DNA of 64,000 bases from a bacterium (GTDB lineage Bacteria; Electryoneota; RPQS01): assembly GCA_023382385.1 (NCBI GenBank), contig JAHDVH010000004.1:148544-212543 (forward strand), in the 5' to 3' direction. Below, in pieces: positions 38,351 to 58,844 of this stretch; position 1 is the first letter of the stretch; every line of letters starts with the position of its first letter. The notes below the pieces were generated by a model. The model saw nothing but the letters and a program-made list of their open reading frames with translations. It had not been told where the DNA came from and ran no database searches. The position numbers were made by a program, and so were the translations under genes.

Positions 38351-38797
38351 ATGTTATTCTCCCATTCAGCAGCATATGCGGTTCGAGCCCTGATCTGGTT
38401 GGCGTGTCAACCCAAGGACAGTCGCTGGCTGGCTACCGATGTTGCCCAAAGGGAAGGTATTCCACAACCATATCTCAGCAAGGTTCTCGGTGTTCTGAAG
38501 TCGCATGGATACATTCACTCGACGCGCGGACCACGAGGGGGCTATGTGCTCGCCCAGGATCCTTCAACCATCTCACTCCTGAAGATATCAGAATTGTTTG
38601 ATTCAGACAAGCGGATGTCCACCTGCGTGCTGGCCTACGGACTATGCGGAGAGTGCGCGCTTTGCCCGCTTGGCGAAATGTGGACCACGACCAAAGCGAC
38701 GATTCAGAACTTTCTGGAAACGACGACCATCGCCACGCTCGCTCAGCGCAGTCCGCAAAACACGGCGAACGCTCACACACAAATCGGTCATGAATAA
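38351..38797 (+). CDS. Rrf2-family regulator (2), first gene of the nitrate operon
   Basis: 148 residues: winged helix (MLFSHSAAYAVRALIWLA, PQPYLSKVLGVLKSHGYI, GPRGGYVLA) and a cysteine loop Cys92, Cys99, Cys102, Cys105 (CVLAYGLCGECALC). The spacing differs from IscR (C-x5-C-x5-C) but could hold an Fe-S cluster. Position at the head of a nar operon that ends with the NO-repair gene ric suggests an NsrR-like sensor of NO or nitrite that controls its own operon. It overlaps moaA by eight bases. Confidence 0.88.
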   Translation: MLFSHSAAYAVRALIWLACQPKDSRWLATDVAQREGIPQPYLSKVLGVLKSHGYIHSTRGPRGGYVLAQDPSTISLLKISELFDSDKRMSTCVLAYGLCGECALCPLGEMWTTTKATIQNFLETTTIATLAQRSPQNTANAHTQIGHE

Positions 38798-39821
38798 ACC
38801 TTCAGCAGCATATGAATCTCGAGTGAGGTGCGCATCGCAGCTCGTTGACCGGTATGGTCGCGTTCATGACTACCTTCGAATCTCGGTTACCGATCGCTGC
38901 AATTTACGCTGTACATATTGTATGCCTGCAGAAGGATTGAAGTGGAAGAAACAGGAGCAGATACTAAGCAACGACGAGATTCTCAGAGTTGCGCGGATCA
39001 TGGCCGGCATGGGCGTGCGAAAGATCAGGCTGACCGGCGGGGAACCAACCACGAGAAGCGATTTGGAGGACTTGGTCGCGGAATTGGTTCGGGTTGACGG
39101 TATCGAAACCGTCGCTCTGACGACGAACGGAGTCCTGTTTGCCCGCAAGGCTCAGCAATTAAAGCAAGCGGGTCTCGGCGGAGTTAACATCAGCCTTGAC
39201 AGTCTCAACCGGGAGACATTTCAGAAGATCGCGCGCCGAGACGCACTTGGGCAAGTACTGGACTCCATTGATGCTGCGCTGCGCTTAGAGTTCGCCATGG
39301 TAAAGGTCAATATGGTCGTGATGGCGGGAATCAACGAGCATGAAATGCTCGACTTCGTTGAGTTGACACGATATCAACCGATAAATGTTCGATTTATCGA
39401 GTATATGCCTTTCAAGGGTAACCAATGGGATCCGACGGGAGTTGTGACATACGCCGACATGCGCAAGCGTATCGAAGAACGCTATGATCTGCACGCCATG
39501 CCGGAGACATATGCAGCGAACCGCGTCGCCGAGGATTTTGCGATCCCGGGATTTCAGGGCAAAATCAGCTTCATTGCTTCCATGTCACAGAGTTTTTGTG
39601 CCACCTGCTCGCGCCTTCGCTTGACCTCGGACGGCGCGCTCAAGGCATGTCTGTTTTTCCCTGCGCAGGTGCAGCTTCGCGATTTGCTTCGTGGAAATGC
39701 ACCGGACGATCACATTCGAAATGCTATTACACGGGCTGTACAAGCCAAGCCTGCGGGTCATCCCGATCCCACGGAACTTGCGGAGCTGAATGATCTCAGC
39801 ATGATTGAAATTGGAGGATAA
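38790..39821 (+). CDS. moaA: GTP 3',8-cyclase MoaA (radical SAM)
   Basis: 343 residues; start at 38790 (ATGAATAA overlaps the rrf2 stop). First step of molybdenum cofactor synthesis. Radical-SAM cluster ligands Cys37, Cys41 and Cys44 in CNLRCTYC; SAM motif LTGGEPT; second cluster in the C-terminal part (CATCSRLRLTSDGALKAC); and the terminal Gly-Gly (MIEIGG) that MoaA needs for activity. Its MoaC partner is on the opposite strand at 36507-37439. MoaD and MoaE are not in the window. Confidence 0.96.
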   Translation: MNKPSAAYESRVRCASQLVDRYGRVHDYLRISVTDRCNLRCTYCMPAEGLKWKKQEQILSNDEILRVARIMAGMGVRKIRLTGGEPTTRSDLEDLVAELVRVDGIETVALTTNGVLFARKAQQLKQAGLGGVNISLDSLNRETFQKIARRDALGQVLDSIDAALRLEFAMVKVNMVVMAGINEHEMLDFVELTRYQPINVRFIEYMPFKGNQWDPTGVVTYADMRKRIEERYDLHAMPETYAANRVAEDFAIPGFQGKISFIASMSQSFCATCSRLRLTSDGALKACLFFPAQVQLRDLLRGNAPDDHIRNAITRAVQAKPAGHPDPTELAELNDLSMIEIGG

Positions 39822-39823
39822 AG

Positions 39824-40339
39824 ATGGCAGACCACATCCATCAGCCAAACGGAAGAACAACAACCGGAAAGATCGTCGCCATTTCGACCAGCACCCGGCG
39901 CGGGATTCCCAAATCCAATCGGAATGAAGTTCTGCTGATCGAGAATTGGGGCATGGAGGGCGATGTGCATGCCGGAAACTGGCATCGTCAAATCAGCATT
40001 CTTGCAATGGAGAGTGTTCAGAAGATGCGGGACAAAGGGGTTCCTGTCCGCCCAGGCGCGTTTGCTGAGAACTTAACTACAGAGTTCATTGACATTCCCA
40101 ACTTGACCATCGGGACGCGCGTCATCATTGGAGATACCGAACTCGAAATTACGCAAATCGGCAAAGAGTGTCACCAGAAGTGCGCCATCTTCTATCGAGC
40201 GGGTGACTGCGTCATGCCGCGCGAAGGAATCTTTGCGATTGTCAAGCGAGGCGGCGTGATCACCGTAGGCGATGATGTTGTGGTTCATGCGGCAGAGTCA
40301 GCCGAAGGGCTTTCCACAGAAGCGAGTGAGGCGGCATGA
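39824..40339 (+). CDS. MOSC-domain protein
   Basis: 171 residues, a single MOSC domain (molybdenum cofactor sulfurase C-terminal type). It shows IENWGMEGDVHAGNWHRQ, RPGAFAENLTTEFIDI and the conserved cysteine region KECHQKCAIF...GDCVMPREG. Stand-alone MOSC proteins bind or deliver sulfur or Mo cofactor; they often accompany MoaA and Mo enzymes. Two bases after moaA and overlapping the cytochrome gene by four bases, so firmly part of the nitrate operon. Precise role undefined. Confidence 0.9.
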   Translation: MADHIHQPNGRTTTGKIVAISTSTRRGIPKSNRNEVLLIENWGMEGDVHAGNWHRQISILAMESVQKMRDKGVPVRPGAFAENLTTEFIDIPNLTIGTRVIIGDTELEITQIGKECHQKCAIFYRAGDCVMPREGIFAIVKRGGVITVGDDVVVHAAESAEGLSTEASEAA

Positions 40340-41139
40340 ATCGCTACTTTCTCGTCACTTTCTATGTGACACTCTTCCTCTTTGGAGGGGCTTTCGCACA
40401 GTCGCCTGACAGCATCGTTGCTCAAGCAGACTCGGCGCAAGTTGATTCCACTGCCAAACAGGTTGATGCAGTTGCCCTGAGCTATGTGCAGAAGTGCGTG
40501 GGTTGCCACACCATCGGCGGAGGGAAGTTAACCGGACCGGACTTGCTTCCGACTCGCGCTTGGCCAAAATCCGAACTTGCAGCCAAAGTAAAACTGATGG
40601 AATCGCGAGTCGGGCCGCTTTCACAGCAGGATGTAGATCAGTACGTCGAGTTACTGCAAGACGCTCGTGCGCAAGAGCGAGTAAGCATCGCGCAGGAATT
40701 GGCGAGCAAAGCGGTGGCTGCAACGCTTGATCCGGCCTCCGAGCAGATCGGACGGAAGCTGTTCGAAGGTTCAACGCGACTTGCCAATGGCGGCATCGCG
40801 TGTATTACTTGTCATCGTGCCGGCGCACAGGGCGGATCGTTTGGTCCCGACTTGACTGCTTTACAGACGCGCATGGGCAAGGTCGCCATGACTTCAGCTA
40901 TTCAGCAGTCGCAGTTTCTGGTCATGTCGGGAACCTATAAGAATCGACCGATTACCGCGCAAGAGGCCGTTCACCTGGCTGAATACTTGTCCTCCCCCGA
41001 TATGATGCCGCAGACGAGCCTGGAGGATCGAGCACCGATGCTGGGCACAGTGATCGGAGTCTTGGGGTTATTGACCGTTGTCGGACTTTACAGAAAACGC
41101 TCGCGCAATCGCATATCGCGCCAACGAGGTATAGCATGA
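40336..41139 (+). CDS. Membrane-anchored dihaem cytochrome c
   Basis: 267 residues: signal peptide (about 1-21, AFA), an acidic linker, haem site CVGCH (54-58) in [15 protein letters not shown], and a second haem CITCH (156-160) in a class-I-like domain. A C-terminal helix (about 236-253) with a basic tail [13 protein letters not shown] anchors it to the inner membrane facing the periplasm. Overlaps narG by four bases. Probably carries electrons for the Rieske/cytochrome b part of the operon, although its direction of transfer is unknown. Confidence 0.88.
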
Positions 41140-44100
41140 GTTGGATTACAGATCTCTTTGATCCCAAGCAGCGGGAGTGGGAAGACTTCTACCGCAATCG
41201 GTGGTCTTACGACAAAATAATACGTAGCACGCACGGTGTAAACTGCACGGGTGGTTGCAGCTGGAATATCTACGTCAAGAACGGCATCGTCACGTGGGAA
41301 ATGCAAGCACTCGACTATCCTATCATAGACAAGGATATTCCTCCCTACGAACCGCGCGGCTGCCAGCGCGGAATTTCCTATTCATGGTATATCTACAGTC
41401 CGATTCGCGTCAAGTATCCGTACGTTCGCGGAGCGTTGATCGACCTGTGGAGAGCGGCGAAACAGCAGTTTCCCGACGATCCCGTCGCCGCATGGAACTC
41501 TATTGTCTCAAATCCGGAATCACGCGCACGCTATCACTCAGCGCGAGGAAAAGGCGGACTGCGTAGATTCAGCTGGGACGAAGCACTCGAGATTCTCGCG
41601 GCGGCGAATATTCACACGGTGATGAAACACGGCCCGGACCGGATTGCAGGGTTCTCGCCGATACCTGCGATGTCCATGGTAAGTTATGCGGCAGGTGCGC
41701 GGTTCATGCAGCTGATGGGTGGTGTATCGCTCTCGTTCTACGATTGGTACTGTGACCTGCCGCCGGCGTCTCCAGAAATTTGGGGCGAACAAACGGACGT
41801 CGCGGAAAGCGCCGATTGGTTCAAATCGAACTTCATCGCAGTCGTCGGCTCGAACGTCCTGATGACTCGCACGCCGGATGCTCATTTCCTTGTGGAAGCG
41901 CGGCATCGCGGTGCAAAAGTTGTCGTCTTTTCGCCGGACTTCTCAATGGTGTCCAAGGTTTCAGATGAGTGGGTTCCCATTCATCAAGGGCAGGACTCCG
42001 CATTCTGGATGGCGGTCGGACATACGATTCTGCGGGAATTTTACGTCGAACGATCCGTCCCGTTCTTTATTGATTACCAGAAGCAGTATACTGACGGGCC
42101 GATGCTGGTTGAACTGCACAAGCAGAATGACGGAAGTTTCAAACCCGGTCAGTATCTGCGAGCCTCTCAAGTCACCGAAACGAAGAGCATTGAGAATTCC
42201 GAATGGAAGTTCTTCATGCTTGATTCTACTACTGGAGAATTGCGACTTCCACAGGGTACGATTGGTCATCGCTGGCAATCCCAGAAGGGACAGTGGAATC
42301 TGAAACTGGAAGATGAGAGAACCGGCAGGCCTTTTGATCCGCTCTTAACGCTCGACCCGAAGGCGGACAAGATGGTGAACGTTTCCCTTCCGGAGTTTTC
42401 CTCTGAGCAAGGCGACCGCTGGGTCAGTGCTCAGGTTCCCGTGAGGAAGATAAACACCGCAGAGGGTGACGTTTATGTCACCACGGCGTTTGAATTGATG
42501 ATCGCAAGATACGGTGTCAGCCGCGATGCGACGAACCCTGCGCCTTATGACGAGCCGGATCACGCTTATACTCCCGCATGGCAAGAGAAATTTACTGGTG
42601 TCTCCGGAGATGTTGTGTTGAGGTTTGCCCGCGAGTGGGCCACAACTGCCGAGAAGAGCGGCGGCAAGTGCAGTGTCATTATTGGAGCAGGCGTCAATCA
42701 CTGGTATCATAACAATCTGATCTACCGTTCCATTATTTCAAGTCTCATGCTTTGTGGCTGTGTTGGTAAGAATGGCGGCGGGTTGAATCACTACGTGGGT
42801 CAGGAGAAGCTTGTTCCTCAGACTTCGTGGGCACCGATCGCGTTCGGGACGGATTGGTCTGTGCCGCCGCGACTGCAGAACACTCCATCATTCCACTACG
42901 TCAACTCCGATCAATGGCGATACGATCCCAAGTTTGACGATATTTGTCCGGTCGCCGATCGCTCGCACTCCATGGCGCACGGCCACACGATTGACAAGCA
43001 GGTGCAAGCGGTGCGTGCGGGGTGGCTGCCCTCGTATCCGCAGTTCGATCAATCTTCTTTAGACGTCGCACGTGATGCGCGGGCGGCAGGCGCGACGGAT
43101 GAAGCTTCAATCGTTAAGGCGGTAGTTGAAAGACTGAAATCGAGAAAGCTGAAGTTCGCAGTTGAAGACCCCGACTCGCCAAAGTGTTTCCCAAGAGTGT
43201 TTTACATCTGGCGCGGGAACGCACTTCTTTCTTCCGCGAAGGGTCACGAGTATTTTCTCAAGCATTATCTGGGGACTCACACCAATCTGATCGCGAAGGA
43301 ACAGGCGAAAGAGCACGTTGAGGATGTCACCTGGCATGACAAAATTGAGCTTGGAAAGATGGACCTTGTGGTGGATCTTAACTACCGCATGGACTCTTCG
43401 GCTCTGTACTCTGATATCATTTTGCCGGCCGCGACCTACTACGAGAAGAATGATCTGAACTCGACGGATATGCACAGTTTCATTCATCCGCTTCAGGCTG
43501 CGGTGCCTCCCTGCTGGGAGTCGAAGAATGACTGGGATATTTTCCGTGAAGTGGCAAGGGCGACCTCAAAGCTTGCTGAGCGATACCTTCCGGATCCGAT
43601 CGAGGATGTCGTCACGGCACCGCTTGCGCATGACACTCCGGCTGAAATTGCTCAACCTTTTGTCAAGGATTGGTCAAAAGGTGAATGTGAGGCGATTCCG
43701 GGGAAGACGATGCCGATTATTAAAGTCGTCAAGCGCGATTACAAGAACGTCTTTAATCGGTTTATCAGCCTCGGTCCGAATTTCCGGAAGGGCCTTGGCA
43801 TGCACGGCATCCAGTTCGAAGTGGCCGATTTGTATGACGCCTACATGGAGAATAACCCGACGGAAAAGTGGGACGGTGGCATCTATCCGTCGTTGCGGGA
43901 GGATGTATTGGTCTGTGAGGCCATTCTGAATTTCGCTCCGGAAACAAACGGAGAGCTTGCATACCGTTCCTACAAATCCGAGGCAGTGAACACGGGCATA
44001 GACCATTCCCACGCTGCGGAGCGGACGCGCTCAGTTCGAACGACTTTCGAAGACATTGCGGCTCAACCGCGACGCATTCTGACTACGCCTTTTTGGAGTG

Positions 44101-44759
44101 GAGTGACAAGCGACAACCGAACATACTCGGCGTACTGTCAGAACGTCGAAGGTCTCGTTCCATGGCGGACATTGAGTGGACGCCAGCACTACTATCTCGA
44201 TCATGAGACGTACATTGCGTATGGCGAAAATCTTCCGACTTACAAGCCGCGTCCTGTCCGAGAAATTCTTGGGGACTTGACAATGTCGAAGCCGGCCGGC
44301 GGGACGTTGGTGTTGAACTATCTCACTCCGCACGGAAAGTGGTCCATTCACTCCACTTACGGCGACACGCTAAGAATGAGAACGTTGAGCCGAGGTCATG
44401 ATCCTATTTGGATCAACGACAAAGACGCTTTGCTGTTGGGTGTGGAAGACAACGACTGGGTTGAGATCTACAACGACCACGGCGTGGTCTGTACCTGCGC
44501 AAACGTGAGCGCGCGCATTCCCCGCGGAATGTGCTTCATCTATCATTCGCCAGAGCGCACATTAGGCATACCGAAATCGCCTGAGCGGGGAAACCGTCGC
44601 GCCGGGGGGCATAACAGCCTGACGAGGGCACGGCTGAAGCCGCTCTTCATGATCGGCGGTTACGGGCAGTTTACATACGCATTCAATTACTGGGGACCTC
44701 CCGGTGTGAACCGCGACACTTTTGTTGCCGTTAAGAAACTTGACAAAGTAATCTGGTAG
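41136..44759 (+). CDS. narG: Respiratory nitrate reductase catalytic subunit NarG
   Basis: 1207 residues. Reduces nitrate to nitrite at a molybdenum bis-MGD centre. The FS0 cluster ligands match NarG exactly: His33, Cys37, Cys41, Cys76 (H-x3-C-x3-C-x34-C). The Mo ligand is Asp207 in [13 protein letters not shown]. No Tat signal is present, so the active site faces the cytoplasm, as in enteric NarG and unlike haloarchaeal types. A cytoplasmic nitrite oxidoreductase NxrA would look similar, but two NarK transporters and narJ favour nitrate respiration. Confidence 0.96.
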
Positions 44760-44768
44760 AGGTGATCA

Positions 44769-46262
44769 ATGGATATTCGCGCACAGGTTTCCATGGTGTT
44801 TCACCTCGACAAATGCATCGGTTGCCATACATGCAGCATTGCCTGCAAGAATGTTTGGACGGATCGTCCCGGTGCCGAGTACATGTGGTGGAACAATGTT
44901 GAAACTAAACCCGGGACGGGATTCCCGCATCGCTGGGAGGACCAGGAACGTTATAAAGGCGGTTGGAAACTAACGGCCGACAAGAAACTCGAACTCAAGT
45001 CCCAGTCGAAGTTGGGAGGGTTGTTCAAACTCTTTTACAATCCGAACCAACCGGGATTAGAGGACTATTACGAGCCATGGACGTACGAATACGAGAATCT
45101 CTTCGACGCACCCGAGTCCGATGATCAGCCAACGGCAAAGCCGATTTCACAGATCACGGGCGAGGAAATGCGAATCGAAGCAGGACCGAACTGGGATGAC
45201 GATTTATCAGGTTCTCCGATGTATGCGGCGAATGATGTTAATTACGACCAGCTTACGCCTGATGAACGGCAGCAGCTGTTCGAGATTCAGCGTGTCGCCT
45301 TCATGTATCTCCCGCGCATTTGCAACCATTGTGCGAATCCAAGCTGCGTGGCATCATGTCCCTCCGGGGCACTTTATAAGCGCGGCGAGGATGGAATTGT
45401 CCTGATTAATCAGGATGTCTGTCGTGGATGGCGTGCGTGTGTCTCGGCCTGTCCGTACAAGAAGATCTACTACAATTGGGTAACGGGAAAATCCGAGAAG
45501 TGCATACTCTGTTACCCCCGGCTTGAGACCGGCCAGGCACCGGCATGCTTTCACTCCTGCGTCGGGCGGATTCGCTACCTCGGTGTGCTGCTTTATGATG
45601 CGGATAGAATCGAGGCGTCCATGCGCACGGCAGATCCGTTACTCGTTGAAGCGCAGCGCGACGTGATCTGTGACCCGAATGATGAAACGGTAATCGCCGC
45701 GGCCCGCGCAAACGGGATCAGTGACGAGATGCTTGAGGCCGCCCGCAAGTCGCCGGTTTACAAGTATGTCGTGCAATGGAAGCTGGCCCTGCCGCTACAC
45801 ATTGAGTATCGAACGATGCCAATGCTCTTCTATGTTCCGCCGCTGCTGCCCGTAATGGGGAAGGACGGTGACCAGCCCTATGATCACGCGGAGGACACAT
45901 TCTTTACGTCGCTTGACAAGGCACGCCTGTCCATCAAGTATCTGGCGAGTCTTTTTAGCGCCGGTAATGAAGCGATTGTCACCGCTTCTCTGAAGAAGCT
46001 TATGGCAGTTCGTTACTATAAGCGGATGCAGGAAGTCGGAGATGTACTGGACGATCGCGTGCGGAGAATCATGAGGGAGGCCGGAACGACCCCAGAGGAA
46101 GCGGAGGAGATCTACTTACTTACGGCAGTGCCCACTGTTCATAAGCGATACGTTCTACCCCCGTTGCAACGCGAGGAGGCCATTGGCTCATTGTGTGAGG
46201 TTCAGGATTGCAAGGGAAGCTGCGGGTTTGGAAAACCCACCGGCGCGGATCGGAGCATGTGA
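44769..46262 (+). CDS. narH: Nitrate reductase iron-sulfur subunit NarH
   Basis: 497 residues. Passes electrons from the membrane subunit to NarG through four clusters. First motif CIGCHTCSIAC (16-26), then CNHCANPSCVASCP. CRGWRACVSACP has Trp in place of a Cys, the hallmark of the 3Fe-4S cluster of NarH, and the last set starts KCILCYPRL. Preceded by GAGGTGATC as ribosome site and overlapping narJ by one base (TGATG). Confidence 0.96.
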   Translation: MDIRAQVSMVFHLDKCIGCHTCSIACKNVWTDRPGAEYMWWNNVETKPGTGFPHRWEDQERYKGGWKLTADKKLELKSQSKLGGLFKLFYNPNQPGLEDYYEPWTYEYENLFDAPESDDQPTAKPISQITGEEMRIEAGPNWDDDLSGSPMYAANDVNYDQLTPDERQQLFEIQRVAFMYLPRICNHCANPSCVASCPSGALYKRGEDGIVLINQDVCRGWRACVSACPYKKIYYNWVTGKSEKCILCYPRLETGQAPACFHSCVGRIRYLGVLLYDADRIEASMRTADPLLVEAQRDVICDPNDETVIAAARANGISDEMLEAARKSPVYKYVVQWKLALPLHIEYRTMPMLFYVPPLLPVMGKDGDQPYDHAEDTFFTSLDKARLSIKYLASLFSAGNEAIVTASLKKLMAVRYYKRMQEVGDVLDDRVRRIMREAGTTPEEAEEIYLLTAVPTVHKRYVLPPLQREEAIGSLCEVQDCKGSCGFGKPTGADRSM

Positions 46263-46798
46263 TGAGGAACCAACACCTCGAACGCACGTGCCAAGATCTC
46301 GCGCTTATCTTAAGCTATCCCGAGAGTGATTACTTATCCGCTCTCGATGAGATGATTCAGTCTAACATCAACAGGAAGGCGCGCAAGTCGCTGCAGGAGT
46401 TTCGTCGCGCCATAGTCGGCATAAACACGCATGATCTGCAGGATCTCTACACGCGAACGTTTGATCTCAATCCCATGTGTTCACCTGCGCTTAGCGTTCA
46501 CCTCTTCGGCGTGGAGAGTTTCAAACGCTCACATCTTATGGTCGGGCTTCTGGATATGTATCGAGATGCGCACTTTCCCAGCAGAGGTGAGTCTGCGGAC
46601 CATATGAGCACCGTTATTCGGTTCCTGCCGTTTACTTCAGAGGAAGAGCGCAGGGACATACTTATGATGATACTCGTGCCCGGGCTTACCAAGATAGCAG
46701 ACTTTTTGGAATCTAAAGACAATCCGTTCGCCCATGCGATAAAGGCGGCAATCGCAGTGTTGAACTTGGAGACCGGTAAGGAGGCAACTTATGCTTGA
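46262..46798 (+). CDS. narJ: Nitrate reductase assembly chaperone NarJ
   Basis: About 178 residues of the TorD/NarJ helical chaperone family, needed to load the Mo cofactor into NarG and attach NarGH to the membrane subunit. Family-like segments: ALILSYPESDYLSALDEM near the N terminus, DLYTRTFDLNPMCSPALSVH (about 63-82) and LPFTSEEERRDILMMILVPG. The start at 46262 is set by the one-base overlap with narH; the end overlaps the narI fusion by eight bases. Confidence 0.92.
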   Translation: MRNQHLERTCQDLALILSYPESDYLSALDEMIQSNINRKARKSLQEFRRAIVGINTHDLQDLYTRTFDLNPMCSPALSVHLFGVESFKRSHLMVGLLDMYRDAHFPSRGESADHMSTVIRFLPFTSEEERRDILMMILVPGLTKIADFLESKDNPFAHAIKAAIAVLNLETGKEATYA

Positions 46799-48107
46799 AT
46801 TGTTTGCATTTGTCGGACTGCCATACGCCGCAATCGTGGTTTGCGTGGTTGGGGTTGTCTGGAGGTTTCGCAATGATCGGTACGGAATCTCATCACTATC
46901 TTCGCAATTCCTCGAGAGCAAAAAACTCTTATGGGGTTCCGCGCCATGGCATATCGGGATTCTCGTTATCTTTCTTGGTCACCTTGTCGCATTCCTGATC
47001 CCCGGCATGTGGCAAAGACTAATGGCCGTTCCCACCCTGCTTATCATTGTGGAGACGATCGGGATAGCGGCGACAGTGCTTTGCCTGTTTGGCCTGGTAG
47101 TGCTCCTCTATCGACGGCTGACGTCTGGTCGCCTGCAAAAAGGCACGCGTTTCGGAGATTTCGCGGTCACGCTGTTGCTCCTGACACAAGTCGGTTTGGG
47201 CCTGATGGTCGCGGGCGGCTACCGTTGGGGTGCGAGTTGGTCAACAGGCACGTTGACGCCGTACGTGTGGAGCCTTATCACCCTTAATCCCGATACTTCG
47301 GTTATCCGCGACATGCCCATTGTGATTCAAGCACATGTTGTCGGCGCATGGCTAATTCTGCTGGTTCTCCCGTTCACCCGTCTGATTCATATGGTGTCGG
47401 TTCCGCTTCAGTATCTGTTCCGATCTCCGCAGAAAGTGGTCTGGAACAACCCGCGCCGAAACACTGCGGCTGTCGCGGCGCGCGTGACTCAGGAGTCACG
47501 GCGACACTTTGTCAAAGCAGCGTTGGGGCTGAGTGCGGCAGGACTCCTGCTTTCAGCGGGTGTTCTTGACAAACTTGGACGATTCTTCCAAATGCCGGGA
47601 CTGCATCACGATGAAGAGGCTAACCTGCTTGAAGCGCGTTTGCGTCGTCTGCAGTTGACCGCCGAAGAGAAGGAGCTTGAACTTGAGCGGATGCGAAGTG
47701 ATCACATTTTTGTGGCCAAACTTTCAGAGCTAAACAACACCGTAGGGAAATACTTTATCGACTACTCGATGCGCCCGGGACTTGCCTTCCGCTCAGAGGA
47801 CGGTTGGCCCATGCTGCTGTCCGCCAAGTGCACACACCTCGGATGCACTGTCGGAAATCAAGTTGACGCGAGCGGCCGTATCCTGTGCCCTTGCCACGTT
47901 TCATACTTTGATATCAAGACCGGAATGCCCAACCCGGGTGCACCTGCAAAGGCGCCGCTCGACCGCATCGCCTGGGTTGTTCGCGATGAGCTTGGCAATG
48001 ACATCGCAACTGAGAGTCCGCGCGGATCCCGCACCGGCCGAATTGATCCGGAACTTGCAGATGGCTATTCACTTTACATTGTCCGATCCTTGTCGGCGGA
48101 GGCATAA
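46791..48107 (+). CDS. narI: NarI cytochrome b fused to a Tat-type Rieske iron-sulfur protein
   Basis: 438 residues. Residues 1-~215 are NarI: five helices with both haem b ligand pairs, His54/His64 (WHIGILVIFLGHL) and His182/His200 (AHVVGAWLILLVLPFTRLIH). A twin-arginine motif SRRHFVKAALG (236-246) then begins a sixth helix, followed by a helical linker (about 275-305). The Rieske domain has CTHLGC (347-352) and CPCH (366-369). NarI ends in the cytoplasm, so the Tat helix would place the Rieske domain in the periplasm. Neighbouring cytochrome b and c genes support a bc-like function. It overlaps narJ by eight bases and the next gene by one. Confidence 0.95.
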   Translation: MLELFAFVGLPYAAIVVCVVGVVWRFRNDRYGISSLSSQFLESKKLLWGSAPWHIGILVIFLGHLVAFLIPGMWQRLMAVPTLLIIVETIGIAATVLCLFGLVVLLYRRLTSGRLQKGTRFGDFAVTLLLLTQVGLGLMVAGGYRWGASWSTGTLTPYVWSLITLNPDTSVIRDMPIVIQAHVVGAWLILLVLPFTRLIHMVSVPLQYLFRSPQKVVWNNPRRNTAAVAARVTQESRRHFVKAALGLSAAGLLLSAGVLDKLGRFFQMPGLHHDEEANLLEARLRRLQLTAEEKELELERMRSDHIFVAKLSELNNTVGKYFIDYSMRPGLAFRSEDGWPMLLSAKCTHLGCTVGNQVDASGRILCPCHVSYFDIKTGMPNPGAPAKAPLDRIAWVVRDELGNDIATESPRGSRTGRIDPELADGYSLYIVRSLSAEA

Positions 48108-49204
48108 TGAAGCGGCCCGTCGTCAAATCTGTATTTGATTTCTTAGCATCGAGGTTGCCTTTTGACAAGCTCGACGTCCGTCACATGATCACCGAGAAGG
48201 AGGTCCCGGTTCACCGGATGTCCTGGGGGTATTATGTCGGCGGACTAGCTCTTTTCTTCTTCATCATTCAAGTATTCACAGGTGTGATGCTGCTGTTCTA
48301 CTACGAACCGACAGTTAGTGAGGCGCATGAATCTGTCGAATACATAACGCACTTCGTGACCATGGGCGGACTCATTCGCAATCTGCATGCATGGTCCGCA
48401 TCGTTCATGATCTTCTGCGTCATCACTCACATGTTGACGGCTTTGGCGATGAAGGCGTTTGCCAAGCCGCGAGAACTCACCTGGATTGCCGGTGTGCTTC
48501 TGCTTTTGATTACGTTCGGATTCGGGTTTACCGGATACTTGCTGCCGTGGAATCAAATAGCGGTCAATGCAACAAAGGTCGGACTGGCCTCAATCGACCA
48601 AATCGGGCAATACCTGCCCGCAGCGCTGTCGCATCTTGCTGAGGATGTGAGGGTGACGATTCAAGGCGCACCGGCCATTGGTCAAGCAACTTTAAGCAGA
48701 TTCTTTGCACTGCATGTCGTCATACTTCCGTTGCTCATTTTTGCGGTGCTCGGACTCCATATCCTATCCGTTCAGTTGCACGGGATGAGTCCCGGCATTG
48801 AAGGGAAGCCGCGCCGCAAGGAGAAGTTCTTTCCGTTCTTCATTCTGAAGGATTTCAAGGAATGGGGCATCGCATTTCTTGTGGTGTTCATCTTAGCATT
48901 GTGCCTTCCTTTTGATTCGCTGTTTCCCTACCCCCTGCTCGAACCGTACAATGCGCTTGGCTCAACACCGGACGGAATTAAACCGGAATGGTATTTCTAT
49001 TTTGTCTACTATCCAATGGAGCTGTTGCCGTTCTGGGTGATCATTGTTGTGATGACGATTGCCACGCTGGGTCTATTCGCAGCTCCGTGGATATTCCGAG
49101 GAACAAGCCACAAAACCATGAGGTGGATTGCATCAGCTATCGCGATGTACATGATTGTCATGACTTTGTTCGGGGAACACATTTACCTTGCCATCAAAGG
49201 ATGA
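48107..49204 (+). CDS. Cytochrome b of a Rieske/cyt b complex (b6-subunit IV fusion form)
   Basis: 365 residues, about seven helices: a b6-like four-helix part plus the three helices of subunit IV. Haem ligands His94/His108 are 13 residues apart inside the pair; His203/His218 are 14 apart, the b6f-type spacing. The quinol-site motif PEWY is at 293-296. With the Rieske domain fused to NarI and the flanking cytochromes c, it would form a quinol-oxidising, proton-moving complex dedicated to the nitrate operon. It overlaps the narI fusion by one base (TAATG). Confidence 0.94.
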   Translation: MKRPVVKSVFDFLASRLPFDKLDVRHMITEKEVPVHRMSWGYYVGGLALFFFIIQVFTGVMLLFYYEPTVSEAHESVEYITHFVTMGGLIRNLHAWSASFMIFCVITHMLTALAMKAFAKPRELTWIAGVLLLLITFGFGFTGYLLPWNQIAVNATKVGLASIDQIGQYLPAALSHLAEDVRVTIQGAPAIGQATLSRFFALHVVILPLLIFAVLGLHILSVQLHGMSPGIEGKPRRKEKFFPFFILKDFKEWGIAFLVVFILALCLPFDSLFPYPLLEPYNALGSTPDGIKPEWYFYFVYYPMELLPFWVIIVVMTIATLGLFAAPWIFRGTSHKTMRWIASAIAMYMIVMTLFGEHIYLAIKG

Positions 49205-49209: not shown

Positions 49210-49797
49210 ATGAAGACTATCATTCTCTTACTAGCTTTGGTCGCGATTGCGAGCAGCGCATTTGCCTACCCGGAGTTTCAAAGATTCTCGCAGATGAATT
49301 CCGGTCGTCCGATCAATTGCGCAATGTGTCATACGAACGGTGACGGGCCAGAAGGAGCTTCGCGCGGTCAGATAGGAAGTCTAACTCCCGATGAACTCAA
49401 CCGATTGAATGCAGCACGCGGGGCCTTCGCGCCGGGAATCGCAGTTGAAAGTCCAATTTTGAATAGATTCGGCAATGAGATTATAACGAAGATGGGAAAG
49501 ACAAAGTTCCTTGAATTGCGCGCTCATCCGGAGTTGTTGGCGGAAGTGTATGGATTTCAGAGCGATCTGGATAATGATGGAATTCCGGATGCACAAGAAT
49601 ACTTAGAAGGGACGCATCCGCTTAATAAGGTACACGGAAATCCACTTCGACTGTTTCTCCACAACTTAAAAACATACAAGCTTCACGTCATATTAATCAT
49701 ACTTGCTACAGTTGCCGGATTCTATGGATTTAGTCATTTGCTGCACGGCCTTGCCGCAAGCGCCACGACCGAGACACGAGATGACAGAGTATCTTAG
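49210..49797 (+). CDS. Membrane-anchored monohaem cytochrome c
   Basis: About 195 residues. Start placed at 49210 (signal peptide MKTIILLLALVAIASSAFA); the ATG at 49201 would add three residues and overlap the cytochrome b stop. One haem site CAMCH (37-41). Around 120-135 an acidic DLDNDGIPDAQEYLEGTHP matches calcium-binding (EF-hand/thrombospondin-3-like) loops. A C-terminal helix (about 160-180) anchors it. By position it could replace cytochrome c1 or f in the Rieske/cyt b complex. Confidence 0.85.
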   Translation: MKTIILLLALVAIASSAFAYPEFQRFSQMNSGRPINCAMCHTNGDGPEGASRGQIGSLTPDELNRLNAARGAFAPGIAVESPILNRFGNEIITKMGKTKFLELRAHPELLAEVYGFQSDLDNDGIPDAQEYLEGTHPLNKVHGNPLRLFLHNLKTYKLHVILIILATVAGFYGFSHLLHGLAASATTETRDDRVS

Positions 49798-49818: not shown

Positions 49819-51339
49819 GTGCAGAATCGTAGAATCGCCATTCAGGTTCTCATCCTGAATACGTTGGCATTCACCATCTGCTTCGCCGGATGGATGATGA
49901 ACGGAGTTCTCATCACCTATCTTGTGGACAACGATATCTTCGTTTGGGACAAAGCACAGATGGGATGGTTGATCGGAATTCCCGTGTTGACCGGGTCGTT
50001 GATGCGCCTGCCGGTCGGAGTGCTTACCGACAAATACGGCGGACGAAGAGTATACACAATCCTTATGCTCATTTCCGCGATTCCGATGTTCATGACCGGA
50101 GCCGCAAATGAATACTATCAGTTTGTCTTCGCAAGTCTGGGTTTCGGACTCACCGGCGCCGCGTTCGCGGTCGGGATCGCGTATACGTCCGTATGGTTTC
50201 CAAAAGAGCGACAAGGAACAGCTCTGGGTATATTTGGAGTCGGCAATGCAGGAGCAGCTTTGACCAGCATGGGTGCGCCGATCCTGTTGAAATGGCTGAC
50301 TGACAACGGATCGCACATTGACGGCTGGCGCATGCTCCCGAAGATTTATGCCGCAGCACTAGTTGTCATGGCCATTATCTTCTACTTTATGACCTACGAG
50401 AAGAAGGTCGAACACTCGGCGGGTTTTACTCTAAGGCAAAGACTTGAGCCGCTAAAGTATGTCAGAGTGTGGAGGTTTGGACTTTACTATTTTCTAGTCT
50501 TTGGCGCCTTCGTCGCTCTCGCGCAATGGCTCGTCCCTTATTACGTGAATGTCTACACAATGAGTGTGGCTTCGGCGGGCTTAATGGCGTCGATCTTCAG
50601 TCTGCCGTCCGGAGTGATTCGCGCTCTCGGCGGTTGGATGTCCGACAAATTTGGAGCGAGACGCGTCATGTACTGGGTCTTGGGTTCGTGTCTGGTCGGT
50701 TGCGCGCTGCTCTGCGTTCCACGGATGGACATTGAATCCCCCGGCTCCGGTGTGACGGCGCTTCGTGCAGGCACCGTCACCTTCGTCTCTGACACATTAA
50801 TCCGAGTGGATCAGCGAGAATACAAAGTTCGACCGGAACCGGCGGCCTGGCGCAAGAACCAAGACAACACGTTTCTGGTCTTTCCTTCCGGCGAATTCTG
50901 GCATGAACCAGCGGTTACAGTTGGAGAGAAAGTTGTCAAGAAGCAACTACTCGCCCGAGGCATCACCCATCTCTACTTTCAGGCGAACATCTGGATATTC
51001 ACATTTCTGGTGTTTGTCGTGGGTATCATGATGGGAATCGGCAAAGCAGCGGTTTATCGCCATATCCCTGACTATTATCCCGATCAGATCGGTGTGGTGG
51101 GTGGTATCGTGGGCGTCGTCGGGGGTTTAGGCGGATTCTTCTGTCCGATTTTGTTTGGCTACATGCTGAAGTGGACAGGTCTTTGGACAACCTCGTGGAT
51201 GTTCCTCGCGGTTCTTTCATTCGTCTGCCTGATCTGGATGCACTATGTCGTTCAGAAGATGATGCATAAGAAGGCTCCCGTCCTGATGCGACACATTGAA
51301 GACAGGATTGATCATCCCGTCGAAACCCAACGTTCCTGA
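49819..51339 (+). CDS. narK: Nitrate/nitrite transporter, NarK type (1)
   Basis: 506 residues, MFS fold with 12 helices. Nitrate-signature glycine helix in the second half: GVVGGIVGVVGGLGGFFCP; the first-half counterpart is GIFGVGNAGAALTSMG. A ~75-residue insertion (about 311-385, from SPGSGVTALRAGTVTF to KKQLLARGITHLYF) lies between helices in the C-terminal half, as seen in some NarK2-type exchangers. GTG start with AAGAGGTG upstream. Likely imports nitrate or exchanges it for nitrite. Confidence 0.93.
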   Translation: MQNRRIAIQVLILNTLAFTICFAGWMMNGVLITYLVDNDIFVWDKAQMGWLIGIPVLTGSLMRLPVGVLTDKYGGRRVYTILMLISAIPMFMTGAANEYYQFVFASLGFGLTGAAFAVGIAYTSVWFPKERQGTALGIFGVGNAGAALTSMGAPILLKWLTDNGSHIDGWRMLPKIYAAALVVMAIIFYFMTYEKKVEHSAGFTLRQRLEPLKYVRVWRFGLYYFLVFGAFVALAQWLVPYYVNVYTMSVASAGLMASIFSLPSGVIRALGGWMSDKFGARRVMYWVLGSCLVGCALLCVPRMDIESPGSGVTALRAGTVTFVSDTLIRVDQREYKVRPEPAAWRKNQDNTFLVFPSGEFWHEPAVTVGEKVVKKQLLARGITHLYFQANIWIFTFLVFVVGIMMGIGKAAVYRHIPDYYPDQIGVVGGIVGVVGGLGGFFCPILFGYMLKWTGLWTTSWMFLAVLSFVCLIWMHYVVQKMMHKKAPVLMRHIEDRIDHPVETQRS

Positions 51340-51362: not shown

Positions 51363-52928
51363 ATGGCAAAAACACTAACATACTGGAACGTCGAGGACGA
51401 CGCCTTTTGGCAAGGCGAAGGAAGGCGAACTGCTTATCGTAATCTCTGGATATCGATTCCGTGCTTGCTGTGCGGCTTCGCAGTCTGGATGTATTGGTCC
51501 ATTGTTACGACGAAGATGCAGGAACTTGGGTTTCAATTCGACCCAGACCCGGCCAAGAACAAGGCCATGCTGTACACACTAATCTCGATTGCGGGACTGA
51601 CCGGCGCGACGCTGCGGATTCCGAACTCTTTCTTCGTAGCATTAAGCGGCGGTCGAAATGTCATAGCGGCGACAACAGCGCTGCTCATCCTGCCCGCCCT
51701 CGGCTTGGGTTTGGCATTGCGCGAACCGGGAACTTCATATTCGACCTTCGTAATTTTATCCGCTCTGTCCGGTATCGGCGGCGGAGCATTCGCGTCATCC
51801 ATGTCGAATATCAGCTTGTTCTTCCCCAAGCGCATACAGGGCACGGCATTAGGACTGAATGCCGGATTGGGAAACCTCGGGGTAAGCGTCATGCAGGTTC
51901 TCTTGCCATTTGTAATGACGTTCGGGATGTTCGGTGCAGCAGGGGGCGAAGCCTGGAAAACCGCCGTTGCCGCAGGAGCACAGCCAGTCGGAACTTTGGT
52001 TTGGATTCAGAACAGCGGATTTGTTTGGGTTCCAATCCTCGGAGTCCTCACCATCCTTGCGTGGGTACTGATGAACAATCTTGCCGTCCATAATGTCGGA
52101 TCAACGCCAGCCGCCATCTCAAAGATGCTCTATCTCTCGCTGCTGGGCTACGCCGGAGCCGCATTAGGATTATATCTTCTTGTCGCGCTCAAAGTGAACA
52201 TGTGGATCGTGCTTCCAATAACCATCATCGTAACGCTTATCCTAATTCGATATCTTTCACCTGCAAAGATTCGTCAGAATCTCAGTAACCAATTTGCCAT
52301 ATTCAAGGTGAAGCACAATTGGGTCATGACATGGCTCTATGTGATGACTTTCGGATCATTCATCGGCTACTCTGCGGCATTTCCCAAGCTCATACAGGAT
52401 GTTTTTGGTTTTCTACCTGATGGAAGTGCGAATCCCAACGCACCTAATCCGTTTGCCTACGCCTGGCTTGGTCCGCTGGTCGGCTCTTTAATCAGACCAG
52501 TCGGCGGATGGCTCTCTGACAAGTTTGGTGGCGCACGCGTGACACATTGGGACACCATACTTATGATTCTTGCAGCGCTCGGCGTCGCCTATAATATTGA
52601 AGCAGCGAGCAACTCGCCAACGCCGGAAGCGTACTTCGTACCTTTTCTGCTCCTATTCTTGCTTTTGTTCATCACGACAGGGATCGGAAACGGGTCGACG
52701 TTCAGAATGATCCCAATCATCTTTGATGCGAAGCACGCGGGTCCGGTCCTCGGGTGGACATCTGCAATCGCCGCCTACGGTGCATTCATCATTCCTAAGG
52801 TGTTCGGAACGCAAATTCAAGCGGGGCATCCCGAGTACGCCTTATACGGATTTGCACTCTACTACGTAAGCTGTCTCGCGGTGAACTGGTGGTTCTACGC
52901 GCGGAAGGGTGCAGAGATTAAGTGTTAG
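51363..52928 (+). CDS. narK: Nitrate/nitrite transporter, NarK type (2)
   Basis: 521 residues, MFS with 12 helices and no large insertion. The N terminus WNVEDDAFWQGEGRRTAYRN resembles NarK1/NarK-type proteins that begin WxPEDxxFW. First nitrate signature GLNAGLGNLGVSVMQ, and PVGGWLSDKFGGARVTHWD after helix 7. Two tandem narK genes (NarK1 symporter and NarK2 exchanger) are a known pairing; which does which is not decided here. Confidence 0.92.
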   Translation: MAKTLTYWNVEDDAFWQGEGRRTAYRNLWISIPCLLCGFAVWMYWSIVTTKMQELGFQFDPDPAKNKAMLYTLISIAGLTGATLRIPNSFFVALSGGRNVIAATTALLILPALGLGLALREPGTSYSTFVILSALSGIGGGAFASSMSNISLFFPKRIQGTALGLNAGLGNLGVSVMQVLLPFVMTFGMFGAAGGEAWKTAVAAGAQPVGTLVWIQNSGFVWVPILGVLTILAWVLMNNLAVHNVGSTPAAISKMLYLSLLGYAGAALGLYLLVALKVNMWIVLPITIIVTLILIRYLSPAKIRQNLSNQFAIFKVKHNWVMTWLYVMTFGSFIGYSAAFPKLIQDVFGFLPDGSANPNAPNPFAYAWLGPLVGSLIRPVGGWLSDKFGGARVTHWDTILMILAALGVAYNIEAASNSPTPEAYFVPFLLLFLLLFITTGIGNGSTFRMIPIIFDAKHAGPVLGWTSAIAAYGAFIIPKVFGTQIQAGHPEYALYGFALYYVSCLAVNWWFYARKGAEIKC

Positions 52929-52964: not shown

Positions 52965-53666
52965 ATGAGCATTTCCCTTGAAACTCCAGTCGGCCAGTTA
53001 GTTGTCGAAAAGCCGGCACGCGCACATGTATTTCAACGTTTTCAAATTGATTACTGCTGCGGTGGCGCGCACTCGCTAGGGGCGGCCTGCGAGGCAAAGA
53101 GCGTTGACCCGCAGCTTGTGCTGTCTGAGATTGCAAGTCAGGACAGCAGAGCGGAGACCCATACAGAACCTGATTGGTCTTTGGTTTCGATGTCTGCGCT
53201 TGTGGACAATATCTTGAGTCAGCACCATGCATATCTGCGGAACGCGCTGCCACACCTCGGTGAGATGGCTGAAAAGGTCTATCGCGTTCACGGGGAAAGT
53301 CATCCCGAGCTTAGAACCATTCTCGAAGTGTATGCCGGGCTGTTTCAGGAGTTGGATTCGCATATGTACAAGGAGGAGAACATACTTTTCCCTGCCATAA
53401 AGCGAATTGAGCAAGGTTCATTGCCACCTGCAGCGGCGGCACAGCTGTTCGGGCCAGTTAGTGTTATGGAGGCCGAGCATGAGTCAGCGGGGCGCGCACT
53501 TGAGAAACTGCGTGAGCTGACTCACGACTATACACCGCCAGAGGGAGCCTGCAACACATTTCGCGGACTCTACGCCGGACTTGAGGAGTTAGAGCTGGAC
53601 TTGCATTGGCATATTCACAAGGAGAACAACATCCTCTTCCCGAGAGCATTGGCAGGCGCAAACTGA
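52965..53666 (+). CDS. ric: Iron-sulfur cluster repair di-iron protein (Ric/ScdA/YtfE)
   Basis: 233 residues. The N-terminal ScdA domain carries the DYCCGG motif (Cys31, Cys32), and a hemerythrin-like four-helix bundle carries the di-iron ligands (ILSQHHAYLR, HMYKEENILFP, EAEHESAG, HWHIHKENNILFP). The family repairs Fe-S centres damaged by nitric oxide and other stress. Its place at the end of the nitrate operon fits protection from NO formed during nitrate or nitrite metabolism. Confidence 0.95.
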   Translation: MSISLETPVGQLVVEKPARAHVFQRFQIDYCCGGAHSLGAACEAKSVDPQLVLSEIASQDSRAETHTEPDWSLVSMSALVDNILSQHHAYLRNALPHLGEMAEKVYRVHGESHPELRTILEVYAGLFQELDSHMYKEENILFPAIKRIEQGSLPPAAAAQLFGPVSVMEAEHESAGRALEKLRELTHDYTPPEGACNTFRGLYAGLEELELDLHWHIHKENNILFPRALAGAN

Positions 53667-54658: not shown

Positions 54659-55360
54659 TCAGATGGTCGCCAGCAGGTAGAAGCCCACGACGATCAGAAG
54701 TACCCCCGCGCCGAACCTGATGAAAGGCACGACCCGTTGCATCATACTATTCAGTTGTGCCATTCCTAATCCAATGCCGACCAATCCTGCCGACAGGGGC
54801 AAGCTGTAGCCAAGCGCAAAGACTGTTAAGGTGAGAGCGCTAATGACCGCGCTGCCGCTTAAGACCGTTGCGCCAATCGCTATCTGCAGCAGCGGATTGC
54901 AGCCGACTGAGCACGCAGTCGATGCACCGCCCAGTACAAGCCCGTAGAAAGCCGCACCACCTGTCTGATTGCCTGACAACCAACGTCCAACATCTAACTT
55001 GGGTAGCTTGAAGCTGAAGAGATTCAAGCTGACAAGACCTAACAGCACTAATATGAGACCGGAAAGGAATTGCCAGTATCTTCCAACGGTCGAGCTAACA
55101 GCCTGACTGACAAGTCCAGCAAGCGCGCCAATCGTCGCAAGGGCGATGGTCGTCCCGATCATGAAGAACAAACCCACCAAGAGCAATTCCCTGCGATTGC
55201 TCCCTCTCGTGCGCGACCCCGCGTAGCCCACGACCGCACCGACAACAGGCAAGGTGCAGCATGCACCTAATGATCCTAATGCTCCGATCAAGAATACTGC
55301 AGGGAAGAACGCTATCCCAAGGCGATCCCCCGAAAGGACATGTTGAATCCATTGCTCCAT
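54659..55360 (-). CDS. CcdA/DsbD-type membrane thiol-electron transporter
   Basis: About 233 residues; ATG at 55360 preferred over a TTG at 55384. Six helices with the paired cysteine sites of the family: SLGACCTLPVVG in the first helix and STACSVGCNPLLQ in the fourth. CcdA-type proteins carry reducing power across the inner membrane to thioredoxin-like partners. CcdA-like genes occur in arsenic operons next to Acr3 and ArsP; no thioredoxin gene is present here, only the Cys-rich protein eight bases upstream. Confidence 0.78.
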   Translation of the reverse strand: MEQWIQHVLSGDRLGIAFFPAVFLIGALGSLGACCTLPVVGAVVGYAGSRTRGSNRRELLLVGLFFMIGTTIALATIGALAGLVSQAVSSTVGRYWQFLSGLILVLLGLVSLNLFSFKLPKLDVGRWLSGNQTGGAAFYGLVLGGASTACSVGCNPLLQIAIGATVLSGSAVISALTLTVFALGYSLPLSAGLVGIGLGMAQLNSMMQRVVPFIRFGAGVLLIVVGFYLLATI

Positions 55361-55368
55361 TGGCGGCT

Positions 55369-55596
55369 CTATTGCGGGCAGCAACTGCGTGTTGAATCAG
55401 CGCAGTTCTGTTCGGAGCAGGGAGAGCTTGACGAGCTTGCCATCAGCGACCAAGTGCCAACCCCTACCGCAGCAAGCATGATGAGTGCTACGAATGCAAT
55501 TCTTAGCTTAGATTTGCTTTGGGAACTTTTCGTGCAATTACAAGACTCGTTACTACAGCAGTCATTACCGGTTTGATTCTCGTTCCTCGGATTCAT
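55369..55596 (-). CDS. Small Cys-rich single-helix membrane protein
   Basis: 75 residues, nine of them cysteine. N-terminal part MNPRNENQTGNDCCSNESCN with CNC, then one transmembrane helix (about 32-52) and a C-terminal tail SSPCSEQNCADSTRSCCPQ. If the tail is periplasmic, its thiols could be partners of the CcdA-like protein encoded next; the cytoplasmic cluster could bind As(III). No family recognised. It is 111 bases after arsP and directly precedes the CcdA-like gene. Confidence 0.6.
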   Translation of the reverse strand: MNPRNENQTGNDCCSNESCNCTKSSQSKSKLRIAFVALIMLAAVGVGTWSLMASSSSSPCSEQNCADSTRSCCPQ

Positions 55597-55707
55597 ACTC
55601 TGTTCCCTTCATATGAGAGATTCGATGAGCAATACTCATAGGCGAATTTGAGATACTTAACTATCCTTACGTACATTCGACGGCTCTCAATCGTCGTTTG
55701 ATCGCCA

Positions 55708-57009
55708 CTAACCTGCAATTGCGCCAAACATTAAGCCCGTTACGGTCGACATAATTACGACGAGTGCAACGAATACCATTGTCTTTTTCAGGCCAAGAAG
55801 ACTCCTTAAGACCAACATGCTTGGCAACGACAGCGCCGGCCCGGCAAGCAAGAGTGCGAGAGCTGGTCCGTTGCCCATGCCACTCCCGAGTAAGCCTTGG
55901 AGTATGGGAACTTCCGTGAGCGTGGCGAAGTACATGAACGCGCCTGCGACCGAAGCGAAAAGGTTTGCCCATAGTGAGTTACCGCCAACCGAATCACTAA
56001 CCCACTGGGAGGGAATGATTCCTTCCTGTCCCGGTCGGCCGAGCATGAAGCCCGCGGCAAGAACACCTATTAATAACAATGGCAGTATCTGCTTGGCAAA
56101 ACCCCAAGTTGAATCCAGCCACTCGCTAAGTTCGCCCTTCGTTGTTGCAAGCACGGCAGCGAGGCTGATTGAACCAACTCCAAATGCGATCAACGGCTCA
56201 TGCGGAAGGAGCATCGCCAGCACTGCGGTAAGAATGCCAGATGCCGTGATTGGCAATGCCGGAGCATTGAACCAAGTGACGAGTACAGTTGCGAGAAGTA
56301 CGGCAGAGAGTCCCGTTAACCACCACTTCAGTTCAGAAATGGCATGCCATATGCCGCTCGATGCACTCGATTGCCCCCAATTCGCAAAGACGAGGATGGC
56401 AATCATCAGCGAAAAGTAGACAACTGTCTTCGCAAGGGATCTGGTCGGTGGCACGATGACCGCATCTGCTTGCTCTGCGGCACGATCGTTCTCTTCTTCT
56501 CGATAAATGAAGTGCATGGCAAGACCTACCACGATACTGAAGACAACTGCGCCGATCGCTCTGGCCGCACCTAGTTCCACACCGAGAATTCGAGCGGTCA
56601 GCACAATCGCCAGCACATTGATCGCAGGACCAGAGTAGAGAAAGGCGGAAGCGGGACCAAGACCGGCTCCCATGCGGTAGATTCCGGCAAACAAGGGAAG
56701 AACAGTACACGAACAAACGGCCAGGACAGTTCCGGAAACAGAGGCGACGCCGTAAGCGAGTACCTTGTTGGCTTTGGCTCCCAGATAGCGCATGACAGAG
56801 TCCTGTCGGACAAATACGCCAATAGCACCCGCAATAAAGAAAGCCGGTATCAGGCACAAGATGACATGTTCGCGAGCATACCAGCGGGTCAGTTGCAGGG
56901 ACTCATTTAACGCATTGTCAAAGCGCGGAACCCCTACTGGCAAGTAGAAGGCGGCAAGGAAAAGACCGACTATAAGGACAAGAGACTTCCACTCAGATCT
57001 TAGATGCAT
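55708..57009 (-). CDS. arsP: ArsP-type permease (DUF318/UPF0718)
   Basis: About 433 residues; start at 57009 (MHLRSEWKSLVL). Two four-helix blocks separated by a charged loop (about 168-195). The first block has the cysteine motif AVCSCTVLPLFAG, and each block has a glycine/proline-rich re-entrant stretch (FLYSGPAINVLAI; LLAGPALSLPSMLVL). Members export trivalent organoarsenicals, though some act on other substrates. Position after acr3 supports an arsenic role. The 101-base gap before it holds the palindrome ATCATGCATGAT (57042-57053). Confidence 0.82.
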   Translation of the reverse strand: MHLRSEWKSLVLIVGLFLAAFYLPVGVPRFDNALNESLQLTRWYAREHVILCLIPAFFIAGAIGVFVRQDSVMRYLGAKANKVLAYGVASVSGTVLAVCSCTVLPLFAGIYRMGAGLGPASAFLYSGPAINVLAIVLTARILGVELGAARAIGAVVFSIVVGLAMHFIYREEENDRAAEQADAVIVPPTRSLAKTVVYFSLMIAILVFANWGQSSASSGIWHAISELKWWLTGLSAVLLATVLVTWFNAPALPITASGILTAVLAMLLPHEPLIAFGVGSISLAAVLATTKGELSEWLDSTWGFAKQILPLLLIGVLAAGFMLGRPGQEGIIPSQWVSDSVGGNSLWANLFASVAGAFMYFATLTEVPILQGLLGSGMGNGPALALLLAGPALSLPSMLVLRSLLGLKKTMVFVALVVIMSTVTGLMFGAIAG

Positions 57010-57110
57010 CAGTTTACCCGTAAATCGCTTCCCTTGCAATGATCATGCATGATGAAGAAGCAATTCCCAGCCTTGGTTTCTTTGTAGGTTTCTTCAACAG
57101 CTCTGCCCAA

Positions 57111-58594: not shown

Positions 58595-58629
58595 ACGAAA
58601 AATATAGCCGTTTATCCGGTTATCTGCAA
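58595..58629 (-). promoter_or_regulatory. arsR promoter, probably leaderless
   Basis: Minus strand: -35 TTGCAG (58629-58624), 17 bp, -10 TATATT (58606-58601). Only six bases separate the -10 from the arsR ATG, so transcription should begin at or next to the start codon. The spacer holds the direct repeat ATAACCGG/ATAAACGG, a possible ArsR contact site. Confidence 0.55.
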
Positions 58630-58844
58630 TTCTTGGTTGAGCGCCTCCATTCACCCAAGTAAATGCTTGTATGTTTAGGCTTTACGAGACTAACGAGGTA
58701 TTAGATCGCGCCCTGCAGCTGGATAGGGAGAGGTGGGAGTCAGATGGGAGTGCTTTGGGGACGCCTGCGAGTGCCAAACGACAGAAGGAAACGGAGAGCC
58801 TGATTCGCGCACATGATCAGAACGCGGGTCGCCCGCGACGATTC

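Follow-up and report, generated by a model that had tools for sequence, protein, structure and literature searches.

The textbook nitrate reductase NarGHI is a quinol oxidase, with 2 charges translocated per nitrate. A different picture has been described for Nar1 of S. coelicolor, which needs the bcc-aa3 supercomplex and co-purifies with it (PMC7931247). Falke et al. computed that a Q-cycle route is feasible for this enzyme, at 4 H+ per nitrate rather than 2, and offered no explanation for Nar1 not being a quinol oxidase (PMC7931247). This dependence raises the question of a Q-cycle working in series with NarGHI. In Thermus, two-hybrid tests support a contact between the cytochrome c NarC and NarI (PMC7694296).

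A second, silent nar cluster of Geobacter metallireducens contains a Rieske-like gene annotated as nirD (PMC2700814). A NarI-Rieske protein in the nar operon of this organism was considered and dropped, as the genome paper gives the nirD-like Rieske gene instead. Our search of the open-licence literature for NarI together with Rieske returned no report of a fusion.

Here we describe such a fusion in a nar operon of the window, that is, the whole 64,000-nucleotide stretch of DNA that was analysed. We give about two chances in three to the reading that the products of this operon form a single membrane assembly, which works as a quinol:nitrate oxidoreductase and contains its own Q-cycle. Each module is already known; the new features are that NarI and Rieske are covalently linked and that NarI has lost its quinol residue.

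The fused protein

The single chain consists of a complete five-helix NarI and a Rieske domain with both cluster motifs, as the preliminary description had proposed, and profiles, ligands and hydropathy all bear this out (Table 1). The Pfam profile Nitrate_red_gam (PF02665) is matched with 213.9 bits over profile positions 3-216 of 217. The fusion also scores 123.2 with the narI equivalog TIGR00351 (cut-off 105.55), and narGHJ adjoin. By alignment, the haem ligands H54, H64, H182 and H200 correspond to H56, H66, H187 and H205 of E. coli, and all four are kept in each of the fifteen fusions that we collected, the window's included.

As for the Rieske part, PF00355 matches residues 308-386 (E 1.3e-6, 28.6 bits against a cut-off of 20.3). 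The motifs C347-T-H349-L-G-C352 and C366-P-C368-H369, invariant in the fusion alignment, hold 2 Cys, 2 His and the disulfide Cys pair. The curated bc1/b6f Rieske equivalogs remain unmatched (Rieske_proteo 28.1 vs 97.4, bc1_QcrA_actin 37.4 vs 275).

The junction reads S236-R-R-H-F-V-K242 and runs into an Ala/Gly-rich helix at about residues 240-259, with the two arginines and the Phe conserved in 15/15 fusions. The presence of a twin-arginine SRRHF at this point had been noted correctly and its position had to be amended, the arginine codons lying at 47499-47504. Hydropathy reveals the five NarI helices and a sixth one of low hydrophobicity (peak 1.76), and the loop ahead of helix 6 has 8 K/R vs 1 D/E. 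Because this loop is strongly positive, the NarI part ends inside the cell; five helices, a positive loop and helix 6 then place the Rieske head outside, provided that helix 6 inserts. TatC is encoded in all 15 fusion genomes. An inside C-terminus of NarI followed by a Tat-type helix, as first described, agrees with the hydropathy, the loop charge, the arginine pair and the spread of TatC.

Helix 6 is separated from the Rieske head by a further conserved helix, about 30 residues long. The AlphaFold model of the fusion (pLDDT 68, pTM 0.38) is too weak for geometry. Foldseek with this weak model still returns E. coli NarI and Rieske heads.

Table 1. Positions of the nar operon genes in the window and of the parts of the fused protein.
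Feature	Position	Strand	Size or residues	Support
Rrf2-type regulator, moaA and MOSC-domain genes upstream	38351-40339	+		reading and synteny for moaA and MOSC
Dihaem membrane-anchored cytochrome c, NarC-like	40336-41139	+	267 aa	two CxxCH, C-terminal helix
narG, cytoplasmic type without Tat signal	41136-44759	+	1207 aa	TIGR01580 above cut-off
narH	44769-46262	+	497 aa	TIGR01660 above cut-off
narJ chaperone	46259-46798	+	179 aa	PF02613 above cut-off; TIGR00684 below cut-off
narI::Rieske fusion gene	46791-48107	+	438 aa	ATG start, no internal stop
NarI domain	46803-47444	+	residues 5-218	PF02665 E 2.7e-63; haem His 54/64/182/200 invariant
Leu83 codon, aligned to E. coli NarI quinol-site Lys86	47037-47039	+		
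Twin-arginine motif SRRHFVK and helix 6	47496-47567	+	motif 236-242; helix to about residue 259	
Conserved helical linker	47607-47696	+	residues 273-302	alignment; AlphaFold local pLDDT about 77-90
Rieske domain	47703-48086	+	about residues 305-432	PF00355 above cut-off, invariant ligands, Foldseek
Rieske cluster motifs	47829-47846 and 47886-47897	+		
Cytochrome b, b6 and subunit-IV-like part	48107-49204	+	365 aa	PF00033, PF00032; Qo motif PEWY
Monohaem membrane-anchored cytochrome c	49210-49797	+		one CxxCH and C-terminal helix in 13/13 copies
narK1 and narK2, nitrate/nitrite transporters	49819-51339 and 51363-52928	+		TIGR00886, NF011608
Ric/YtfE-like gene after narK2	52965-53666	+		named by reading; near several fusion loci

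The quinol site of NarI

We take Lys86 of E. coli NarI to be a quinol-site residue, and its role there was reportedly described by Bertero and colleagues in 2005. Judging by PDB titles, 1y5i is NarI-K86A and 1y4z carries a Q-site inhibitor. Among 47 standalone NarIs, this position is mostly Arg (32) or Lys (8), with Tyr in the remaining seven, all from Actinomycetota (L040, L041, L045 and L080-L083). The fifteen fusions have Ala (6), Leu (4), Phe (3), Val (1) or Met (1) and never a basic residue. In Thermus-type sequences, a conserved Glu five residues after this position anchors the alignment. A divergent standalone NarI-like protein of the Verrucomicrobiota sample (L048, 26% identity), encoded near narH and narK, was excluded from the count. 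Close to residue 86, positions 76, 77, 79 and 81 are also altered in the fusions.

No basic residue has been regained at position 86, despite the fusions differing by half in sequence. The loss of Lys or Arg counts as one historical event, because the fusions form one clade.

With this residue lost and the haem ligands kept, the fused NarI looks like an electron wire whose quinol site is lost or altered, though it may have a quinol site that is shaped differently. The replacement in all fifteen fusions indicates that the Qo site of cytochrome b has most likely taken over quinol oxidation. It had been suggested that a bc-type branch sits on the Nar quinol site. A branch tied to Nar is indeed present, with cytochrome b and a membrane-anchored cytochrome c encoded next to the fusion. 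Its placement at the quinol site does not hold given the change to A/L/F/V/M, and the branch probably replaces that site.

The Tyr of the seven actinobacterial proteins, none of which is from S. coelicolor, is a candidate reason for Nar1 of that species not being a quinol oxidase. A change from Lys or Arg to Tyr at this same NarI position may mark the bc-dependent nitrate reductases of actinobacteria.

Operon and proposed electron path

The genes are ordered as dihaem cytochrome c, narG, narH, narJ, narI::Rieske, cytochrome b, monohaem cytochrome c, narK1 and narK2, with borders that mostly overlap or almost touch. In cytochrome b, H94/H108, H203/H218 and the PEWY motif are invariant across eleven aligned sequences. 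The closest solved chains are cytochrome b6, and the AlphaFold model is weak (pLDDT 64). The dihaem cytochrome follows a NarC-like pattern (two CxxCH, C-terminal anchor) common to fusion loci, standalone loci and Thermus. The preliminary description had omitted this NarC, which together with the monohaem cytochrome c completes the carrier chain. NarK1 has an apparent extra stretch between helices, at about residues 305-393, that is unmatched in most related loci.

We propose the following path. Sec would insert the five NarI helices, and Tat would read the internal SRRxFxK helix and export the folded Rieske head, still tied to NarI. At the Qo site with its PEWY motif, cytochrome b would then oxidise quinol. 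As in a Q-cycle, one electron would travel via the b haems to the Qi side. The other electron would pass to the tethered Rieske cluster, to the monohaem cytochrome c, to the dihaem NarC, and from there through the NarI haems bD and bP to NarH and NarG, for nitrate to be reduced in the cytoplasm. NarI would not oxidise quinol in this scheme and would serve as a wire across the membrane. Each nitrate reduced would be coupled to about 4 charges rather than 2.

Read from the genes, the operon parts, the cofactor ligands, the covalent linkage and the loss of Lys or Arg at position 86 are firm features of these loci. The order of the carriers, including the step from Rieske to NarI, is what we infer, as are the supercomplex, the direction and the stoichiometry. 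A fused chain that has lost its quinol residue suggests nitrate reduction fed by a Q-cycle, which could save about twice the usual energy. A self-contained Q-cycle nitrate reductase of this kind, with NarI off quinol, the tethered Rieske feeding the NarI haems and about 2x the energy of classical NarGHI, is probable in our view, held with slightly more reserve than the single assembly itself. Against this path, the dihaem NarC predates the bc module and could drain electrons outward, as in Thermus.

Genome setting and alternative readings

The window's genome has 2.9 Mb and is 98% complete. It contains no second bc-type cytochrome b, and a second cytochrome b match is found in four other fusion genomes. 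The two further Rieske matches of the window's genome are proteins of about 125 aa, with no bc-type Rieske besides the fused one. Genes resembling Alternative Complex III (named by reading) adjoin a cluster for an aa3-type oxidase, and the genome also encodes a cbb3 oxidase. With these genes for aerobic use, the cell does not depend on the nar-linked bc module as its general complex III. Full-length NrfA is encoded in 9/15 fusion genomes, the window's among them. No Cu nitrite reductase scores over the cut-off in any of the 15, and NOR is absent from the window's genome. Gene content thus makes nitrate-to-ammonium respiration the likely setting of the operon. The window's genome gave no match to MqnA or MqnD.

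Other regions of the window hold further redox and resistance genes, all on the reverse strand. An ORF of 1184 aa at 60443-63997 resembles a multihaem cytochrome with repeated CxxCH, reaches the window edge and has a weak match to a nanowire triheme profile. The region 31260-34437, adjoining molybdenum cofactor genes, codes for a multihaem cytochrome that matches ExtKL weakly (32428-33777). Another c-type-like protein and a second regulator of Rrf2 type are also encoded there. Finally, 54659-58654 is an arsenic or metal resistance cluster adjoining the nar operon, with an ACR3 arsenite efflux transporter, an ArsR-like regulator and an SO_0444-like permease.

The alternative that survives best, although we consider it unlikely, is an operon with two outputs, where NarI still oxidises quinol for nitrate and the Rieske, cytochrome b and cytochrome c branch feeds periplasmic acceptors or oxidases. 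It is encouraged by Thermus NarC, a proposed stand-in for complex III on which the electron supply of nitrite and NO reductases depends (PMC7694296), and by the cbb3 and aa3-type oxidases of the window's genome. However, the basic residue at position 86 is gone from all fusions, the oxidases would be served by the genes resembling Alternative Complex III, and the window's genome has neither NOR nor a Cu nitrite reductase over the cut-off. The covalent tie of the Rieske head to NarI would also be left unexplained.

The Rieske head could instead be a mere tether or assembly aid, holding a separate bc complex near Nar with no direct transfer into NarI. This is more improbable: every Rieske cluster ligand is invariant, there is no other bc-type Rieske in the window's genome, and the quinol residue of NarI is lost.

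Marginally less credible still is an enzyme running in reverse as a nitrite oxidoreductase, with electrons from nitrite leaving through NarI to cytochromes c and the bc part reversed or feeding an oxidase. Nitrobacter does use a Thermus-like cluster with cytochrome c for nitrite oxidation (PMC7694296), and a NarI that lacks its quinol residue suits this direction equally. On the other side, NrfA points to nitrate ammonification, and the nearest relatives among the NarI and NarG sequences compared are Thermus-type nitrate reductases. No nitrite-oxidiser trait was found in the gene content.

Spread and history of the fusion

The fifteen distinct fusions are of nearly equal length and have the same junction, at identities between 79% and about 50%. 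A scan of GTDB genome contigs produced ten full-length homologues besides the window: one from an unclassified bacterium (79%), eight from Verrucomicrobiota MAGs and one from a Planctomycetota MAG (about 50-56%). Whole-genome searches added two from the window's own phylum besides the 79% homologue (G028, G024) and two more from Planctomycetota (G672, G696). Overall, the fusion spans at least three phyla, with hosts known mainly as MAGs. A database search for the NarI-Rieske architecture, which had been proposed as a check, recovered it in 14 further genomes.

An assembly or sequencing error joining two genes, which had been raised as a possible refutation, is of negligible probability, since the same full-length chain with the same junction recurs in 15 independent genomes and MAGs.

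For plasmid-borne NarI, 166 records matched, none of them covering 80% of the fusion query. The Methylacidiphilum MAG contig L012, which has only fragments of narG, narH and narI, was left out of the analysis. At about 30-710 of this contig, narG, narH and fusion-type narI fragments run together, in what is either a decayed operon or a misassembly.

In terms of gene neighbourhood, cytochrome b and the monohaem cytochrome c lie directly downstream of the fusion in 15/15 loci. In the Planctomycetota sample, NarI is present in 54 of 392 genomes, 3 of these being fusions. Where narI stands alone it is followed by narK, with no adjoining cytochrome b or monohaem cytochrome c (27/27 Planctomycetota loci and 4/4 from the window's own phylum). 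The dihaem NarC was found at every standalone locus whose upstream region was read. From this layout of NarC, narGHJI and narK, the base operon is therefore a Thermus-type narCGHJI-narK. The window operon itself shows the Thermus-type arrangement, with dihaem NarC before narGHJI and narK after. As read from these loci, the Rieske head, cytochrome b and monohaem cytochrome c are a joint addition to that operon, placed before narK.

On a tree of 52 NarI domains, a branch (97/96) separates the fusions from the standalone proteins. Scattered independent fusions were also considered, and this single clade rules them out. The whole module has likely moved by horizontal transfer, because both forms coexist in each of two phyla.

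Comparison with known systems

The contact between Nar and a bc branch is encoded here in one polypeptide, and the change at the quinol site offers a clear one-residue prediction. If the proposed Q-cycle path is true, the energy yields of nitrate respiration would be revised in the carriers, that is, a small phylum, Verrucomicrobiota and Planctomycetota.

Like QcrA-type and other dual Sec/Tat proteins (PMC5449189), the fusion combines a multi-helix Sec part with a twin-arginine helix and a cofactor domain that is predicted to be exported, so that the likeness to actinobacterial Rieske proteins claimed earlier is sound. It differs in that QcrA has three helices, and the known five-helix families carry MoCo or polyferredoxin domains (PMC5449189). 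The text of the dual Sec/Tat survey does not mention NarI, nor a protein that begins with NarI and has its N-terminus outside (PMC5449189). NarI would be a new Sec part within this class.

With G. metallireducens, compared through the description in its genome paper, the operon has in common a dihaem cytochrome c, narG-Y-J-I, narK1 and narK2, with moeA and moaA nearby; no fusion is reported there (PMC2700814). The haloarchaeal Nar systems combine NarB (Rieske) and NarC (cytochrome b) with narGH, and a Q-cycle has been proposed for them (PMC2483277, PMC4683180). In contrast to our operon, their Rieske gene is separate, NarG (983 aa) is described as outward-facing, and the cluster is without NarI.

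S. coelicolor Nar1 is likewise a bc-dependent nitrate reductase with proposed Q-cycle coupling (PMC7931247). Its genes are separate, though, the partner is a full bcc-aa3, and the contact is known by co-purification only. The actinobacterial NarIs compared here, from hosts other than S. coelicolor, have Tyr at position 86, whereas the residue is hydrophobic in the fusions.

Lastly, NarCGHJI of Thermus thermophilus has an unfused NarI with Arg at position 86, in an operon without Rieske, cytochrome b or monohaem cytochrome c. It shares with the window operon the dihaem cytochrome c, narG, narH, narJ and narI, two narK-type transporters, and the same NarI and NarG branch.
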